Shown here: in pieces, positions 37,935 through 45,705 of the stretch | How positions within the stretch are numbered: position 1 is the first letter of the stretch | Layout: the number at the start of each line of letters is the position of its first letter | Assembly: GCA_018267365.1 (NCBI GenBank) | Contig: JAFDYQ010000019.1 | Span: 1 to 64,000 of the forward strand | From: Bacteroidota bacterium | Lineage (GTDB): Bacteria > Bacteroidota > Bacteroidia > Chitinophagales > LD1 | Length of the DNA stretch: 64,000 bases | Direction of reading: 5' to 3' | The notes under the pieces: model-generated | Database searches by the model: none | What the model was told of the DNA's origin: nothing | What the model saw: the letters and a program-made list of their open reading frames with translations, nothing else | Translations under genes and position numbers: made by a program

Positions 37935-38056
37935 CCTCACCCCGGCCCTCTCCGAAGGAGAGGGAGGAATGTAGCAATAGCTTTAAGAAAATGATAATTG
38001 AACTGTAAATAAGCATACTAATATTATTCCTCCCCTTCGGGGAGGTCAGGAGGGGT
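37935..38056. repeat. paired GC-rich hairpins between tgt and the LptF/G gene
   Basis: Two hairpins of the dispersed CCTCACC-type bracket this gap. First, CCCTCTCC-GAA-GGAGAGGG (37946-37964), 11 bases after the tgt stop. Second, CCTCCCC-TTC-GGGGAGG (38029-38045), followed by TCAGGAGGGGT right before the next ATG. The second hairpin and its flank resemble a common Bacteroidota intergenic repeat. They could terminate, protect or regulate either gene. Confidence 0.6.
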
Positions 38057-38057
38057 G

Positions 38058-39134
38058 ATGAAGAAGATCGACTGGTACATATTGAAGAAGTTTCTCGGCA
38101 CGTTTGTGTTTATCATCGTGCTGCTGAATCTTATCACTGTAGTGGTGGATGTATCAGAGAAGATCGACAACTTTCTGGATGGCAGCGCTACTGTATGGGA
38201 GATCATCTTCTCCTACTATATGGCGTTTATCCCCTATATCTCGTCTATGCTGGCACCGTTCTTTGTGCTGGTGGCTGTCATCTTCTTTACTTCACAGCTG
38301 GCGGATAGGTCGGAGATCATAGCAATACTCAATAGCGGTACGAGTTACTTCCGTTTTCTTCGGCCCTATGCTGTCGGCGCGGTGATACTTGGTGCGAGTC
38401 TTTGGGTGTGCAATAACTACCTGGTGCCGATGGCCAATCATAAGCGGCTGCAGTTTGAGAGCACATATATCAATAAGTTCACCCGGTCTATGAGCTATAA
38501 TTATCACAGGACCATCAGCCCGGGTACTTTTATGTACGTGGAGAACTACCGGCCGGCAGATGCTGTGGGTAGCAGGTTTTCCATAGATAAATTTGAGAAA
38601 GGAAAGATGGTCATGAAGCTGCGCAGTGAGAGCATCATGTGGGATACGATCAAAAAGACATGGAGAGTACACAATTACTACATACGTGAGCTGCACCCGG
38701 ATGGAGATGTGATACGTACGGGGACAGATATGGATTCGCTTTTCCCTTTCCGGCCAGAGAACTTTGCCATCACTACAGACAGGAAGGATGAGATGACCAC
38801 GCCTGCTCTGAAGGATTTCATCAGGCATATGCAGAAAGCAGGGTCTAATGATATCGAGTTCTATGAGGTGGAGCTGTATAGGCGCACATCGGGAGCATTC
38901 AGCGTACTGATCATGACGCTGATAGGCGTGAGCCTGGCCTCGCGCAAGATACGTGGAGGCTTGGGTTGGCACCTTGTATTAGGCATCGCGCTTTGCGCTA
39001 CCTTTGAGATCATCATGAAGTTCTCTGTGACCTTTGCTACCAACTCCTCTCTGCATCCCTTTATAGGGGTATGGATACCAAACTTTATCTTTGGGTGTGT
39101 CGCAGTCTATCTGCTGAAAACTGCACCTAAGTAA
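38058..39134 (+). CDS. LptF/LptG family permease
   Basis: A 358-residue inner-membrane permease of the lipopolysaccharide exporter (LptBFG). N-terminal signature KKIDWYILKKFLGTFVFIIVLLNLITVVVDVSEKIDNF, further helices (FIPYISSMLAPFFVLVAVIFF; LRPYAVGAVILGASLWV), a periplasmic beta-jellyroll middle, and a C-terminal block (GAFSVLIMTLIGVSLASRKIRGG; PFIGVWIPNFIFGCVAVYLL). LptF and LptG cannot be told apart here, and the ATPase LptB is not in the window. ATG 38058 is preceded by a GGAGGGG stretch from the repeat. Confidence 0.93.
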   Translation: MKKIDWYILKKFLGTFVFIIVLLNLITVVVDVSEKIDNFLDGSATVWEIIFSYYMAFIPYISSMLAPFFVLVAVIFFTSQLADRSEIIAILNSGTSYFRFLRPYAVGAVILGASLWVCNNYLVPMANHKRLQFESTYINKFTRSMSYNYHRTISPGTFMYVENYRPADAVGSRFSIDKFEKGKMVMKLRSESIMWDTIKKTWRVHNYYIRELHPDGDVIRTGTDMDSLFPFRPENFAITTDRKDEMTTPALKDFIRHMQKAGSNDIEFYEVELYRRTSGAFSVLIMTLIGVSLASRKIRGGLGWHLVLGIALCATFEIIMKFSVTFATNSSLHPFIGVWIPNFIFGCVAVYLLKTAPK

Positions 39135-39164
39135 AAAGCTTATCTTAGGCTTCAAATATTGATC

Positions 39165-40643
39165 ATGAAAACAAGTTTTCTCTTTTTTTCTCTCTTTCTA
39201 CTATCAATGGGAGCCAGGGCACAAACCTGTACACCTGAGGTTTTTATCAGACCTGTAGATTCCACTTTTCTCTCTATCTATTGTAATCCTGCCAGACTAG
39301 TGTATTTGTATGTCGACTCTACGGTGCATAGCGGGTCATCACCACAATATAATTGGTATTTCAATGACAGCCTGATAGCTAGTTCCACTGATTACGTAAA
39401 CTTCACAGGGGAGATAGATGAAAGCGACACGATCTATGTAGAGATGACGAGCAATGATCCCTGCGCTAACGCTGCTACGGTCAGGAGTAATCTTTTGATA
39501 CTGCATACAGATGCATCTACACCTTTCGTGCTGTCCGGCGGCACATCTATGCAAGCCGGCTGCCAGGGTGCCCAAGTAATGTATTATTTCACCACAGTAG
39601 ATGTCGATTCAGTGATGATCGTTTCTAATCACTACTACATGAAAAGGCTGTCTCCACCCGGTACCTGGGCTGCACCACGTACGGATACTGTAGTAGGACC
39701 CGCTATGCCGGGTGAACGTTTAGACCCATATGTACGCGCTTATAATTTAGTGAGCATAGGTTACTGCTCGACTGGTTTTGCTTTTGATACAGGACTGTAC
39801 GCTATAGGCGATACGATACCCACTCAGAACCTATGTATGGTGTCGATAGATAGTACCACTCAAATGCCTCATGTGATATGGGAGAAGGCCGACAAGGCCG
39901 CCACAGATAGCTTCTACATCTACCGAACCAGTTCCCCGGATTCCGCTTATAGCCAGGTCGCCGTTTTGAGCAGAGACTCTCTGAGCGAGTGGGCAGATCA
40001 GACAGCCAGTGCTGACAGTTTCAGCTATAGATATATGATTGCATTGATGGATACCTGCTGTAATCTATCGCCACAGAGCCCCTACATACAGACACTGTAT
40101 CTATCGGCTACCGGAAACGGAGGATTCACCTGGGTGCCATATGCTGTGGAGGGAGATACTAGTAGTCTGACGTATGCGCTGTACAGAGACTCTGCCGGAC
40201 TCGGAGATTGGCAACTGATACAGACTGCTGCGCGGGGTCAAACCTCTCTGACTGATCCTCAGTATTCATTGTATCCAGGGGCCAACTATCGCCTGGTAGT
40301 AGTCCTACCGTATACCTGCGTACCTTCCAGAAACACCTCCACTATTTTATCCAATACGCTACAGCGCCCATACCTGATATCAGGTCTTGATCTGGTCGGT
40401 CAGGAGTTATCTATAAGCGTATCACCTAACCCCGTGGCAGATAAGCTTAGTATATCGTGTGCGGCATCTATGAGTAACCCGATCCGGCTGGAGGTGAGCG
40501 ATGCGATGGGACAAATAGTTTTGGCAACCACTACCCAAAAAGAACAACTTGTTATATCCACTGCGCCTTTTCCTCCGGGAGTGTATCATTTGAAGGCATA
40601 CACAAACAATGAAATGAAGCTGATCCGGATTGTCAAACAATAA
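39165..40643 (+). CDS. secreted T9SS type A cargo protein
   Basis: A 492-residue protein with signal peptide MKTSFLFFSLFLLSMGARAQ. The middle has Ig/fibronectin-like beta domains (NWYFNDSLIASSTDYVNF; DSFYIYRTSSPDSAYSQVAVLS; SLTYALYRDSAGLGDWQLIQ). The C terminus (SVSPNPVADKLSISC ... VSDAMGQIVLATT ... GVYHLKAYTNNEMKLIRIVKQ) is a clear type A T9SS sorting signal. No enzymatic motif. Surface-exposed or released; function unknown. It lies just ahead of the KAS/ACP locus. Confidence 0.9.
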   Translation: MKTSFLFFSLFLLSMGARAQTCTPEVFIRPVDSTFLSIYCNPARLVYLYVDSTVHSGSSPQYNWYFNDSLIASSTDYVNFTGEIDESDTIYVEMTSNDPCANAATVRSNLLILHTDASTPFVLSGGTSMQAGCQGAQVMYYFTTVDVDSVMIVSNHYYMKRLSPPGTWAAPRTDTVVGPAMPGERLDPYVRAYNLVSIGYCSTGFAFDTGLYAIGDTIPTQNLCMVSIDSTTQMPHVIWEKADKAATDSFYIYRTSSPDSAYSQVAVLSRDSLSEWADQTASADSFSYRYMIALMDTCCNLSPQSPYIQTLYLSATGNGGFTWVPYAVEGDTSSLTYALYRDSAGLGDWQLIQTAARGQTSLTDPQYSLYPGANYRLVVVLPYTCVPSRNTSTILSNTLQRPYLISGLDLVGQELSISVSPNPVADKLSISCAASMSNPIRLEVSDAMGQIVLATTTQKEQLVISTAPFPPGVYHLKAYTNNEMKLIRIVKQ

Positions 40644-40664: not shown

Positions 40665-41282
40665 ATGCAATCTTATATCACCCGCTATGTACAGGTCAAT
40701 GGAGCAGCCATCCATGTGGATGGTGGCTTGTACTACAGAGGCGAGGCATCGGGAGCAGAATTTCTGGCGGAGGCATATAAGGGCATCGGGCTGGACTATC
40801 CTAAATTTTACAAGATGGACCCGCTGAGCAGGCTGGCCGTACTGGCTACGGAGATGCTGCTAAAAGGTCGCAAAATCACGCAGGAATATAAGCCTGAAGA
40901 TGTAGCTGTCATCGTGACCTCTGCGCACTCGAGCCTGGATACTGACCTGCGCTACCAGCAGTCGGTGGCTACCGCGCCGAGCCCATCGCTATTCGTATAC
41001 ACGCTGCCTAATGTGATGATAGGAGAGGTCTGTATACGGCAAGGGATAAAGGGGGAGAATACCTGTTTTGTATCAGCAGATTTTGATCCGGAGTTTCAGG
41101 CGGGCTATGTGAATGGGCTGCTGGTAGAGGGCAGAGCAGAGGTGTGTATCTCTGGCCGGGCAGACTATCTGCGGGGCGGGATGAATGCTTTTTTTATGCT
41201 GGTAGAGAAAAATCCTGCATCTTTGGGAGAATACAATACACAAACCATCAAACAACTATACGACCGGCAATGGAAGAATTAA
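40665..41282 (+). CDS. half-length beta-ketoacyl-synthase-like protein, no active-site Cys
   Basis: A 205-residue protein that aligns with the N-terminal half of KAS enzymes: YPKFYKMDPLSRLAVLATEMLL, DVAVIVTSAHSSLDTDLRYQQSV, SPSLFVYTLPNVMIGEVCIRQGIKG, then GLLVEGRAEVCISGRADYL. Where full KAS proteins have TACSSS it reads CFVSADFDPEFQAG, so no nucleophile, and the His-containing second half is absent. Such half-KAS genes occur with ACP and KAS genes in Bacteroidota flexirubin-type clusters, where they may be structural partners. Its stop overlaps the ACP start. A TATTATTG box 4 bases ahead of the ATG could be its promoter. Confidence 0.82.
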   Translation: MQSYITRYVQVNGAAIHVDGGLYYRGEASGAEFLAEAYKGIGLDYPKFYKMDPLSRLAVLATEMLLKGRKITQEYKPEDVAVIVTSAHSSLDTDLRYQQSVATAPSPSLFVYTLPNVMIGEVCIRQGIKGENTCFVSADFDPEFQAGYVNGLLVEGRAEVCISGRADYLRGGMNAFFMLVEKNPASLGEYNTQTIKQLYDRQWKN

Positions 41283-41527
41283 TGCAGACACTCAAGGGGC
41301 AGATAGTAGAGCAGCTCAATCTGCAACATATCAAACCGGAAGATATCGGAGATGATCAGCCACTCTTTATCGAAGGCCTTGGGCTGGATTCTATAGATGC
41401 GCTGGAGCTGATCGTGCTGCTGCAGCAGAAATATGGCATCAAACTAGCCAATCCGTCTGAAGGGCCGACTGTATTCAAGACCGTGCGCAGTATAGCGGAG
41501 TATATCACGGCGCATAAGGCGGCGTAA
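41270..41527 (+). CDS. acyl carrier protein
   Basis: 85 residues. The phosphopantetheine serine is S41 in GLGLDSIDALELI, with a typical helix 1 (LKGQIVEQLNLQ) and end (FKTVRSIAEYI). Being in a KAS locus rather than next to fabF/fabD, it is likely a dedicated secondary-metabolism carrier. I chose ATG 41270, which overlaps the half-KAS gene by 13 bases; ATG 41282 (overlapping by one base) is possible. Confidence 0.93.
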   Translation: MEELMQTLKGQIVEQLNLQHIKPEDIGDDQPLFIEGLGLDSIDALELIVLLQQKYGIKLANPSEGPTVFKTVRSIAEYITAHKAA

Positions 41528-41540
41528 ATGGGCTTTACTT

Positions 41541-41948
41541 ATGGCAAGATACCAGATCGTGTTTTTAGTGATAGCCGTCATTGGGTTCACAGCCTGTGAT
41601 CCATTTAAACTTGTAGAGTTTAAAAATCGAACTGGTAGTCCGGTAAATGTCAAAATCGTGCAGGGTGGTACAGATGAATATCGATTTCAAAATTACCTTA
41701 CTCAGTACAAATATTTAGATACTATTAGGTTTCAGCTTTTGCCTCATTCAAGTACGGTTTTTGATTTGGGAATGGGATCAATAAGTGAATATGAATTAGA
41801 AAGACTGGCTCATTCCATCAAGTTTATTGAAATAGGAACTCCGACTGCAACAAAAATTTACAAAGATTCAACTCAAGTTTTGAATCTTTTCAAAGCGAAT
41901 TTAAAAGGCAATTTTATGCATCAAAGAGTGGAGGTAGATATTGAATGA
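41541..41948 (+). CDS. AT-rich hypothetical lipoprotein inside the KAS locus
   Basis: A 135-residue protein. MARYQIVFLVIAVIGFTAC gives a plausible lipobox (FTAC), followed by a small beta-rich domain (LVEFKNRTGSPVNVKIVQGG; DTIRFQLLPHSSTVFDLG). Third positions are much more A/T-rich than in the ACP gene before it and the KAS gene after it, so it looks inserted. Yet its end overlaps the KAS start by 4 bases (ATGA) and transcription would pass straight through. Family not recognised. Confidence 0.7.
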   Translation: MARYQIVFLVIAVIGFTACDPFKLVEFKNRTGSPVNVKIVQGGTDEYRFQNYLTQYKYLDTIRFQLLPHSSTVFDLGMGSISEYELERLAHSIKFIEIGTPTATKIYKDSTQVLNLFKANLKGNFMHQRVEVDIE

Positions 41949-43138
41949 AATCTCCCATCTACATAGCAGGCATCGGCATCATCTCTGCCATAGGTGATAA
42001 TGCGGCGGAGACACTGGCGCACCTGACGGCGTCTGAGACGGGTGTGAGCGGTATGGAGATACTACCATCTGCTTATGCTGGCACACTGCCTGTAGCGGAG
42101 GTGAAATATACCAATGCACAACTGGCAGCAAAGAGCGGTCTGGAACCGTGGCAGACGCGCACGGCGCAGCTGAGCATGATAGCAGCGCGTGAGGCGAAAG
42201 AGAATAGTAAGATAGACTTTAGCAAATGGCGCTGTGGTTTTATCTCGGCCAATACAGTGGGTGGGATGGACAGGACGGAGGACTTTATGAAGGACTTTCT
42301 CGCGGATGCGAGTAGTGGCGACCTGCATGATGTGATCAATCATGACAGCGGCGATGCTACGGAGATCGTGGCGGAGAAGCTGGGCTGCACAGATTACATT
42401 ACTACGATCAGTACGGCATGCTCTTCCTCTGCAAATGCGATGATGTACGGCGCACGGCTGATACAGAATGATATAGTGGATGTGATCGTAGCTGGTGGTA
42501 CAGATGCGCTTTCACGCTTTACACTGAATGGCTTTAAATCTCTGATGATACTGGATGAGCAGTTGTGTCAACCTTTTGATGAGAACAGGAGAGGACTCAA
42601 CCTGGGTGAAGGGGCCGGCTATGTGGTACTGGTGTCGCAGCGTGTGCTGGATAGCGAGCAGGTAAAACCGCTCGCCATCCTCAGCGGCTATGCCAATGCC
42701 AATGATGCCTACCATCAGACGGCTTCATCGCCCGAAGGGAATGGAAATTATGCGGCGATGACAGGTGCACTGGCTATGGCCAGACTGACACCTGCACAGA
42801 TAGACTATATCAACCTGCACGGTACAGGCACGCCTAATAATGATGTGTCAGAGGGTACGGCTATCCGACGTGTATTTGGTGATACGCCGCCGGTGATGAG
42901 CTCGACTAAAGCCTATACGGGGCACACCCTCGGCGCGAGCGCTGGGATAGAGGGTGTGATCAGTGTGCTGGCATTGCAGCATGGTGTGGTCTTCCCAAAT
43001 CTGCGTCATCAGACGCAGATGAAAGAATTGGCATTCGGTCCCCAGACCAGCCTTCTGAAAAGGCCACTTGCACACGTGCTCTCCAATTCATTTGGTTTTG
43101 GCGGCAACTGCTCATCTGTGATCTTCTCAAAAAGCTGA
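41945..43138 (+). CDS. beta-ketoacyl-ACP synthase (complete active site)
   Basis: A 397-residue condensing enzyme. Catalytic set is intact: C159 in TISTACSSSANAMMYGA, H292 in NLHGTGTPNND, K322 in MSSTKAYTGH and H327 in the same block. Also FGFGGNCSSVIFSK at the end. It should extend an acyl chain on the ACP two genes upstream. Similarity in layout to aryl-polyene/flexirubin KAS genes suggests a polyene-forming role in complex with the Cys-less KAS at 44647. Confidence 0.95.
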   Translation: MKSPIYIAGIGIISAIGDNAAETLAHLTASETGVSGMEILPSAYAGTLPVAEVKYTNAQLAAKSGLEPWQTRTAQLSMIAAREAKENSKIDFSKWRCGFISANTVGGMDRTEDFMKDFLADASSGDLHDVINHDSGDATEIVAEKLGCTDYITTISTACSSSANAMMYGARLIQNDIVDVIVAGGTDALSRFTLNGFKSLMILDEQLCQPFDENRRGLNLGEGAGYVVLVSQRVLDSEQVKPLAILSGYANANDAYHQTASSPEGNGNYAAMTGALAMARLTPAQIDYINLHGTGTPNNDVSEGTAIRRVFGDTPPVMSSTKAYTGHTLGASAGIEGVISVLALQHGVVFPNLRHQTQMKELAFGPQTSLLKRPLAHVLSNSFGFGGNCSSVIFSKS

Positions 43139-43139
43139 T

Positions 43140-44636
43140 ATGCCGGCTTCCCGCATCACTGAGGCTGGCCTGGCTCTGACATCTCCACGCGTGATGCGGT
43201 ATATAGCGGGCGGCATCATACTGCTGGGTATAGTCATGCGCTTGGCTGTCTACATGCAAAACAGGAATCTCTTTATAGACGAATCTAATATAGCGCGCAA
43301 TGTTTATGAGCGTGGATTTGGTGCCCTGGCGCAGCCACTGAGCTATGAGCAGTACGCGCCCCCGGTATTCCTCTGGGTGGTCAAGGTCAGTGCGATACTC
43401 TTTGGGTATAGGGAGCAGGCGCTAAAACTGTTTCCTCTCCTATGCGGTTTACTGAGCCTGGGTTTGCTCTACAGGATACTACTATTGATGGATATCAAGC
43501 GAGCCGCCTGGTACCCGCTGATCCTTTTTGCTACGGGGCATATCTATCTGCGCTATGCCACAGAGCTAAAGCAGTACTCCTCAGATGCGCTGGTGGCGCT
43601 GGCGCTGGTGTGGCTGGCGCTGATAGCCGATATCCGCACGCTGCGGTGTGTACGATTTGTGGTGCTATGGACCCTGTGCGGATCGCTGGCTATCTGGATC
43701 TCTATGCCATCCGTATTTCTACTCGCCACAGCAGGGATTTATTATCTGGTGATTTTGTGGCGGGATAGGGACTATGCCCGAATCTGGATCGTATTGATAC
43801 CAGCTTTGGCCTGGCTCTCTGAGTTTGGATACTATTACCTGACGATTCTCAGGCCGGAGGCAGAGTCTGCCTATTTGCAAAATTTTCATAGAAATGCTTT
43901 TATCTATCTGCCTCCGCATACAGCCGGCGAGTGGCTATATGATGGGAATGCTGTAATACAAATACTGGGTGTGGCGGCAGGGCACTGGACACTTTCTCTG
44001 ATCTTTCACCTGATATGTCTGGGGGCTGCGATGGCTGTAGCTATCAGAAGCAGGCAAATCAGGCTGATACTGGTCGCTATGCCTTTATTCTTTTTGCTAT
44101 GTGCCGCGGGACTGCATAAGTTTTCCCTGCTGCCCAGAGTGATCCTGTTTGTCATGCCTCTGCTGCTGGTATGGATCGGACTGGGCCTTGAGGCATTACT
44201 ATCACTACGTTTATCGGCTATGATCCTCCTGCCGGTGTCTGCTATATGCCTGATCAACTACGGTCAGCTCCATTATCTATGGCGGCCACTGCTAGTCACG
44301 GAGGTGACAGATTGCCTGGTATATATGCAGCAGCATAGCAGTGCTAACGAGAAGTTTTACATAGAGGGGTCTGCCGTGCCTGCTTATGTCTATTACACAG
44401 AGATTCATCCCGATCGTGGCAGATGGTCTGCGCTCAGGGGCGCTACCTGCCTGCCCTATGCGGTAGATATGGATCCTGTGGCCAGTGCTATGCCAGACAG
44501 TAGCATGGTACTGATCAGCTATCAGGAGCCGGATGTGATACGCTCTGATATGGAGGCTCTAGACAGGCACATGAAGAAAGAAGATGTGTATAAAGGCAGA
44601 TCAGTGGGCCAGGTCGTACTCCTGAGAAAAAGATAG
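43140..44636 (+). CDS. GT39-like polytopic membrane glycosyltransferase
   Basis: A 498-residue protein with about 10-12 membrane helices. The first extracytoplasmic loop has the acidic pair FIDESNIARNVYERG, the place of the catalytic Asp/Glu in GT-C enzymes, and YEQYAPPVFLW resembles the PMT/ArnT family. The C-terminal soluble part (VTDCLVYMQQHSSANEKFYIEGSAVPAYVYY) is typical as well. It uses lipid-linked sugars. Its gene begins one base after the KAS stop and sits between that gene and the CLF-like gene, so it may glycosylate the product or carrier lipid; that is inference. Confidence 0.8.
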   Translation: MPASRITEAGLALTSPRVMRYIAGGIILLGIVMRLAVYMQNRNLFIDESNIARNVYERGFGALAQPLSYEQYAPPVFLWVVKVSAILFGYREQALKLFPLLCGLLSLGLLYRILLLMDIKRAAWYPLILFATGHIYLRYATELKQYSSDALVALALVWLALIADIRTLRCVRFVVLWTLCGSLAIWISMPSVFLLATAGIYYLVILWRDRDYARIWIVLIPALAWLSEFGYYYLTILRPEAESAYLQNFHRNAFIYLPPHTAGEWLYDGNAVIQILGVAAGHWTLSLIFHLICLGAAMAVAIRSRQIRLILVAMPLFFLLCAAGLHKFSLLPRVILFVMPLLLVWIGLGLEALLSLRLSAMILLPVSAICLINYGQLHYLWRPLLVTEVTDCLVYMQQHSSANEKFYIEGSAVPAYVYYTEIHPDRGRWSALRGATCLPYAVDMDPVASAMPDSSMVLISYQEPDVIRSDMEALDRHMKKEDVYKGRSVGQVVLLRKR

Positions 44637-44646
44637 ATTTGACACG

Positions 44647-45705
44647 ATGAAACCACTATTCATAAATGGCGCGAGCTGTATTTCTCCTCAACCTACTTTC
44701 GGGACAGAGTTTCCTTTTGAGGCGAAGGAGTATACGGGTTCCAGGCTATCCTGTATAGAGCCGGATTACGCACCCTATATCGATCCGAAGCTATCCCGTC
44801 GTATGGGAAGGCTGCTGAAGTACGGCACCACTGCGGGACTGCAGGCGCTGCGAGACGCCGGTATACAGGTGCCTGATGCTATCTCTACAGGCACGGGCTT
44901 TGGCCTGCTGGATGACTCAGGTAAGTTTTTGAAGAATGTGATAGAGGCCGGCGAGGGCGTGGTGAGTCCTACGGCGTTTATTCAGTCTACACATAATACA
45001 GTCAGCTCAAACATAGCGCTGGCCATAGGCTGTCATGCGCACAACAATACTTTTGCGCATAAGGGCTTTTCCTTTGAAAGTGCGCTGGTGGACGCTCAGA
45101 TGCTCGCTACAGAGGATGACAAGATGGCCAATATACTGGTGGGAGCCTACGATGAGGTCACAGACTATAGCTATCAGATCATGCAGCGGCTTGGGCTGAT
45201 AAGGTCCGGAGGGGAGAGTAATACGGAGCTGCTAAAAACCACCGGTAGAGGCACCATAGCAGGGGAAGGGGCTGCTTTCTTTGTCCTGTCTACCCAAAAA
45301 GCGGAAAATACCTATGCTACGTACCGCGGTTGTAAACTGATCTATAAACCATCTTCAGCTCAAACGCTGTCAGAAGCTATTGAAGCTTTTCTGGCCGGTC
45401 ATGGACTGGACCGTTCTGAGGCGTCAGTGTTGTCGGGAGTTTGCGGCGATGACCGCCGGGATACCATCCTGAGAGCAATCAATGAGGGGCTCTTCAAAGG
45501 TAATACCGTATTGGCCTACAAGCACCTGTGCGGCGAATATATGACGTCCTCGGCTTTTGGCATGTGGGCGGCCGTGAACATACTCCGTACCCGGGGGGTG
45601 CCTGAGTATATGCTCCTCAGCGGCACCCCATCGTGTCCACAGCATATCCTAATATGCAATTCTTATAAGAATGATTACTCACTGATACTCTTGTCAGTGG
45701 CCTGA
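44647..45705 (+). CDS. KAS-like protein lacking active-site Cys (chain-length-factor-like)
   Basis: A 352-residue thiolase-fold protein. Alignment to the KAS at 41945 places TFAHKGFSFESALVDAQ over the TACSSS segment: no cysteine. The other half keeps AGEGAAFFVL, GVCGDDRRD and LAYKHLCGEYMTSSAFG, but the GH pair of the active site is not clean. This is what chain-length factors of type II PKS and the Cys-less partners in aryl-polyene clusters look like. It probably forms a heterodimer with the complete KAS. It is last in the run; no terminator is obvious. Confidence 0.85.
   Translation: MKPLFINGASCISPQPTFGTEFPFEAKEYTGSRLSCIEPDYAPYIDPKLSRRMGRLLKYGTTAGLQALRDAGIQVPDAISTGTGFGLLDDSGKFLKNVIEAGEGVVSPTAFIQSTHNTVSSNIALAIGCHAHNNTFAHKGFSFESALVDAQMLATEDDKMANILVGAYDEVTDYSYQIMQRLGLIRSGGESNTELLKTTGRGTIAGEGAAFFVLSTQKAENTYATYRGCKLIYKPSSAQTLSEAIEAFLAGHGLDRSEASVLSGVCGDDRRDTILRAINEGLFKGNTVLAYKHLCGEYMTSSAFGMWAAVNILRTRGVPEYMLLSGTPSCPQHILICNSYKNDYSLILLSVA

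Follow-up and report, generated by a model that had tools for sequence, protein, structure and literature searches.

At positions 40665-45705 of the window, i.e. the first 64,000 nucleotides of contig JAFDYQ010000019.1 from the draft genome of a Bacteroidota bacterium (GCA_018267365.1), lies a compact locus that raises a puzzling question: what is the role of half a beta-ketoacyl synthase (KAS), without a nucleophile, next to an acyl carrier protein (ACP), a complete KAS (KAS3) and a further KAS-fold protein that lacks the cysteine (KASl)? We consider it highly probable that the half-KAS, ACP, KAS3 and KASl genes together form a block of a flexirubin-type pathway (for an aryl polyene plus a dialkylresorcinol), that this pathway is split into four blocks in the genus, and that it operates through the mechanism proposed below. 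With this, an odd "half enzyme" locus becomes a recognisable pathway block. The pathway itself is already known and has a dispersed arrangement here; the most useful new points are the partner assignment and an extra pair of ketosynthase (KS) and chain length factor (CLF), both of which are proposed from fusions and sequence.

All six open reading frames (ORFs) were intact and on the + strand with intergenic gaps of -13 to +13 nt, which agrees with an earlier sequence-only reading that had described six tightly spaced same-strand genes. It was noted that all six are under purifying selection compared with congeners (dN/dS 0.00-0.24), and they are thus true genes rather than chance ORFs. The core genes gave values of 0.00-0.13, and the lipoprotein-like and GT39-like genes evolve faster (0.21-0.24). 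The half-KAS matched the Pfam ketoacyl-synt model at model positions 84-199 only (28.2 bits; cut-off 20.8); its nucleophile column has no Cys and its His-bearing C-terminal half is missing. Across its family of 78 sequences, the C-terminal half is likewise missing and the aligned nucleophile column is without Cys in 75. The ACP, with 41270 as its best start, is 85 aa long, overlaps the half-KAS gene by 13 nt and carries Ser41; it scored 41.6 bits for PP-binding and 76.3 bits for the PRK09184 subfamily model NF006617 (cut-off 70), and its protein is 100% identical to the orthologue at locus L020. In KAS3, C159, H292 and H327 plus a Lys are kept in all 69 homologues, and the active-site residues were found to be invariant or nearly so among homologues of KAS3 and of KAS1 and KAS2, two synthases encoded on another contig (C9). 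KASl matched Ketoacyl-synt_2 (PF13723; 35.8 bits, cut-off 25), lacks the Cys in 68 of 68 homologues and has lost the first His. The AF2 models reached a pLDDT of 89 and a pTM of 0.87 for the half-KAS, and a pLDDT of 92.7 with a whole KAS fold for KASl. The G+C content of the lipoprotein-like gene is 34.8%, against 50.1% for the window, and a lipobox-like GFTAC was recognised by eye at C19 of its product. The earlier descriptions of a 205-residue nucleophile-less half, an ACP with S41, an AT-rich lipoprotein-like gene, a complete KAS and a Cys-less KAS-fold protein were therefore borne out by family matches, alignment, G+C content and residue checks across homologues. The polytopic protein that had been called GT39-like is also present; however, its PF13231 score of 25.2 bits lies under the gathering score of 26.1, which leaves the label tentative, and it showed no similarity to two further polytopic proteins that the genome encodes.

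We then examined the neighbourhood of the half-KAS family. A scan of 84,980 genomes returned 204 relatives, and the best 80, nearly all from Bacteroidota, were kept. Most of these 80 loci repeat one gene order, which starts with (aromatic amino-acid lyase, ketoreductase (KR)) KAS1, ACP and lysophospholipid acyltransferase (LPLAT), continues with hotdog proteins, 4HBT thioesterase, KAS2, (FAD enzyme), half-KAS, ACP, KAS3 and KASl, and ends with polysaccharide deacetylase, LolA, ApeI-type dehydratase (DH), GT2 and an MMPL-acyltransferase-methyltransferase protein. Half-KAS loci nearly always lie in flexirubin/aryl-polyene (APE) clusters, and the conserved neighbourhood matches the flx gene list of Chitinophaga pinensis, in which five beta-ketoacyl synthases (FlxC, I, L, N, O) are listed only as putative and flxP-flxU comprise deacetylase, acyltransferase, LolA, glycosyltransferase and exporter (PMC3992019). 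By cluster order, the half-KAS is probably FlxL, the ACP FlxM, KAS3 FlxN and KASl FlxO; KAS2 would be FlxI and KAS1 FlxC, with the letters following from order.

The rest of the pathway was found in the same genome, on contigs C9, C40 and C5 besides C10; these four blocks depart from the usual, though non-essential, clustering. On C40, the tyrosine ammonia-lyase (TAL) FlxA (NF053541; 782.5 bits, cut-off 700) and the acyl-CoA ligase FlxY (NF053551; 607.7 bits, cut-off 520) exceeded curated cut-offs, as did DarB on C5 (NF053539; 553.3 bits, cut-off 550). The 307-aa neighbour of DarB is named by no NCBIfam model and is 38% identical to the protein adjoining Empedobacter DarB. The genome holds the flexirubin gene complement of KR, DH, ACPs, several KAS, LolA and MMPL exporter; identities in its own genome were 64% for KR, 56% for HAL and 41% for MMPL. 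KR, DH and starter genes are missing from the locus, as the sequence-only reading had observed, and a search for unlinked copies placed KR and DH on C40, and DarB with a DarA-like protein on C5. With four free-standing ACPs in the genome, the ACP of the locus is not its only one. The earlier idea of aryl-polyene/flexirubin chemistry with a Cys-less KAS partner is borne out by the cluster order, the ApeC match described below and the flx genes of the genome.

From this gene set we infer the following order of action and product. FlxA would convert tyrosine to 4-coumarate, which FlxY would activate, and the ApeR-like KAS1 would start elongation on the ACPs. Two KS-CLF pairs, the ApeO-ApeC-like KAS3-KASl and KAS2-half, would lengthen the polyene, with KR and DH at work between elongation rounds. 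Acyltransferases, the LolA-like carrier and the MMPL-type protein would attach or export the polyene, and DarB would make the resorcinol. The half-KAS and KASl are proposed to be non-catalytic subunits that complete a KAS dimer and shape its cavity.

Which synthase does each inactive protein serve? In Bacteroidales, the half is fused to KAS2 in 16 loci and KASl to KAS3 in 10, with no crossed fusion, which indicates that each inactive protein is probably the CLF partner of its fusion mate. Both the half-KAS and KASl are thus probably non-catalytic CLF partners, the former of KAS2 on C9 and not of the neighbouring KAS3, and the latter of KAS3. Profile comparisons point the same way for KAS3 and KASl. 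Against the APE proteins of E. coli CFT073, KASl matched ApeC (33 bits), KAS3 scored higher with ApeO than with ApeR (270 and 206 bits), KAS1 matched ApeR best (281 bits) and KAS2 matched ApeO (209 bits); the KASl profile also found the ApeC chains 6qsp_B (E=5e-9) and 7f28_A. The best profile match of KASl was PDB 9S5H, for which a relevant paper was not found. KAS3-KASl therefore combines a Cys-His-His KS with a Cys-less, ApeC-related partner, as expected of a KS-CLF. In the tree, where the row L040_KAS2_minus was ignored as an apparently spurious reverse-strand ORF, KAS1 grouped with ApeR (98/88) and KAS3 formed its own flexirubin-cluster clade (100/98) with the organism's own FabF outside, so that it is not a primary FabF. 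The half-KAS profile matched none of the E. coli CFT073 APE proteins (ApeC, E=1.2). Foldseek with the half-KAS model placed the ishigamide CLF 6kxe_B on top and 6qsp_B among the best. The half-KAS was considered as an ApeC orthologue and rejected, as it has no PF13723 match and resembles 6qsp_B at the fold level only. Taken together, the fusions, residue losses, profiles, tree and structural matches make two KS-CLF pairs the simplest reading. We consider it rather likely that Bacteroidota flexirubin-type pathways employ an ApeR-like KS and two distinct KS-CLF heterodimers, of which one is KAS3-KASl and the other joins KAS2 to a half-sized CLF from a family of its own that the E. coli APE cluster lacks, and that in this genus the subunits of the second pair are encoded in different blocks.

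The arrangement of the locus itself would suggest another pairing within the same pathway, in which the half-KAS either pairs with the KAS3 beside it or acts as a shared subunit, and KASl either works with KAS2 or functions by itself. The genes for half-KAS, ACP, KAS3 and KASl indeed remain together even where KAS2 has relocated; however, the one-sided fusions and the ApeO/ApeC matches of KAS3 and KASl make this unlikely, and the heteromer first envisaged between the half-KAS and the KAS at 41945 is disfavoured by the fusions. Co-occurrence was also assessed: of 81 related genomes, 29 carry the half-KAS, and 28 of these also carry KAS2; four very weak half matches were left out of this count. 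We further noted 582-600 aa KAS3-KASl fusions (L087, L088, L092, L094-L097) in which KASl is reduced to its N-terminal half, recalling the half-sized ApeC, which is made up of one thiolase fold (PMC8358021).

An additional consideration is whether KAS2-half serves the resorcinol branch, supplying a beta-ketoacyl or acyl substrate to DarB, and not the polyene. This pair belongs to flexirubin clusters, and the resorcinol moiety is built from two fatty-acid intermediates (PMC3992019). However, 14 Bacteroidales genomes and the Cyclobacteriaceae genome L022 carry KAS2 and the half with no DarB above cut-off, whereas DarB is present in all five other flexirubin-type genomes tested. The retention of KAS2-half without DarB argues for a role in polyene building and renders a resorcinol-specific role improbable.

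The lipoprotein-like and GT39-like genes had earlier prompted the suggestion of a minimal condensing module with a glycosylated or membrane-delivered product. The locus L020 (genome G004) has half-ACP-KAS3-KASl with neither gene; L019 (G005) has the GT39-like gene (63% identity) and no lipoprotein gene; L018 (G001) has a lipoprotein homologue after the ACP (53% identity over 88 aa); and in G002 the GT39-like gene is missing. By this distribution the two genes are lineage-specific insertions, and they therefore give no basis for inferring a product. A separate small polyketide-like module with such a product of its own, or a decaying remnant, is hardly credible: although the locus is detached from the other pathway genes and contains these two genes, it has no KR, DH, starter or release enzyme, flexirubin-cluster orthologues for all the missing functions (including KR, DH, TAL, ligase, exporter and DarB) lie on C40, C9 and C5, which rules out a stand-alone minimal polyketide synthase, and the core genes retain the low dN/dS values given above.

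The locus is instead a displaced block, and the splitting is genuine and occurs to differing degrees across the family. In G014 the genes from KAS1 through GT2 are contiguous, as are those from 4HBT through deacetylase in G009; G021 and G011 have two blocks with the break directly ahead of the half-KAS; the genes of the focal genus are broken once more after KASl. In the congener G004, the KAS1-to-FAD block, a second ACP-KAS3-KASl module and FlxA lie approximately 80 and 40 kb apart on one 344-kb contig, so fragmented assembly alone does not account for the dispersal. Scattered flexirubin pathways of this kind could be overlooked or misnamed by cluster-based genome mining.

Several observations weigh against this account. 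The fusions are mostly confined to Bacteroidales and may derive from few events. In a distance-matrix test of 42 loci, the partial r was 0.34 between the half and KAS2 and 0.17 between the half and KAS3, a weak difference whose order was kept in 293 of 300 resamplings; with KAS1 added (22 loci), the order favouring KAS2 was not kept (171 of 300). As the draft genome comprises 76 contigs, the distances between blocks follow from it only in part, and the congeners G005 and G006 carry the half and KAS2 with no close FlxA; these may use another starter or be incomplete assemblies.

Table. Coordinates of the locus, its upstream context and the other pathway blocks; contig numbers (C) are those of the same genome.
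Feature	Position	Strand	Remarks
Half-KAS, CLF-like, nucleophile-less	40665..41282	+	205 aa; partial PF00109 match
ACP	41270..41527	+	S41; start 41270 inferred from orthologue alignment
Lipoprotein-like gene, AT-rich	41541..41948	+	lineage-specific insertion by its distribution; no conserved pathway part
Catalytic KAS3, ApeO-like	41945..43138	+	C159/H292/H327
PMT/GT39-like polytopic membrane protein	43140..44636	+	inserted between KAS3 and KASl; PF13231 sub-threshold
Cys-less KAS (KASl), ApeC-like full-length CLF	44647..45705	+	Ketoacyl-synt_2 match
LptF/LptG permease and type IX secretion system (T9SS) sorting-tail protein	38055..40643	+	upstream context outside pathway
KAS1-ACP1-LPLAT-4HBT-KAS2-FAD block (KAS2 at C9:35935-37113)	C9:33080-38395		
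Deacetylase, LolA, dehydratase, GT2, exporter, AcpS-like protein, FlxY, KR, FlxA	C40:6991-21654		
DarA-like protein, DarB, hotdog protein, ABC transporter	C5:57067-63727		

Upstream of the flx block, tgt-lptF was found in the genus members examined. The T9SS sorting-tail gene (39159-40643), between lptF and the half-KAS, is missing in L019, and its product shows 49% identity in L020/G004. No Bacteroidota-type promoter (TTTG-N17-22-TAnnTTTG) was found near the locus, and the two in the whole window are at chance level. The second ACP-KAS3-KASl module lies on C5 in the focal genome (G000:C5:86950-89458; L011, L016) without a half-KAS, with its KAS 47% and its KASl 37% identical to the window copies; it was also noted in G001, G003, G004 and G006, and elsewhere in the family a second KASl copy is more diverged (31-34% identity). 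An FAD enzyme gene (L010:3152-4396; G000:C9:37151-38395) lies between KAS2 and the half in many clusters. Its best model was the halogenase CmlS at 149 of 900 bits, far under the cut-off, and it may act on the pigment head group as an aryl hydroxylase or a halogenase. A small gene for an AcpS-like holo-ACP synthase (G000:C40:17641-18012; L109:3642-4013), named by eye, adjoins FlxY in the export/starter block. Flexirubin-type condensing genes were also encountered in metagenome-assembled genomes of other phyla, L024 (Thermoanaerobaculia) and L075 (Sumerlaeota), reflecting either transfer or binning error.

Among known systems, the flx/dar clusters of C. pinensis and Flavobacterium johnsoniae (PMC3992019) have a condensing block with the same genes in the same order, and FlxA, FlxY and DarB are recognised here above curated cut-offs. 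However, two blocks were reported for C. pinensis and four are found here, together with the inserted lipoprotein-like and GT39-like genes and the second ACP-KAS3-KASl copy on C5. The fusion pattern offers concrete partner assignments for the putative synthases FlxC, I, L, N and O, and makes the division of labour in flexirubin/aryl-polyene assembly directly testable. ApeO-ApeC and ApeR (6QSP, 7F28, 7F27; PMC8358021, PMC8253772) correspond by profile score to KAS3-KASl and KAS1, the latter also by tree, but ApeC is a half KAS whereas KASl is full length, and the E. coli APE cluster has no counterpart of the KAS2-half pair. AmcF-AmcG of cispentacin biosynthesis (PMC10698177) likewise joins a KAS to a short partner that lacks the motif; among NCBIfam models, AmcG scored highest for the half-KAS, and AmcF came second for KAS2. 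However, the pathway and genes differ from the flexirubin block, and membership was rejected, with scores of 29.4 bits for the half-KAS against NF058659 (AmcG; cut-off 80) and 200.5 bits for KAS2 against AmcF (cut-off 325). Both by profile and by Foldseek, the half-KAS is matched best by the CLF chain 6kxd_B/6kxe_B of the ishigamide KS-CLF Iga11-Iga12 (6KXD/6KXE), but this CLF is full-length, from an unrelated cluster and 18% identical in sequence. A half-sized CLF distinct from ApeC would extend the set of reduced CLFs by one further case.

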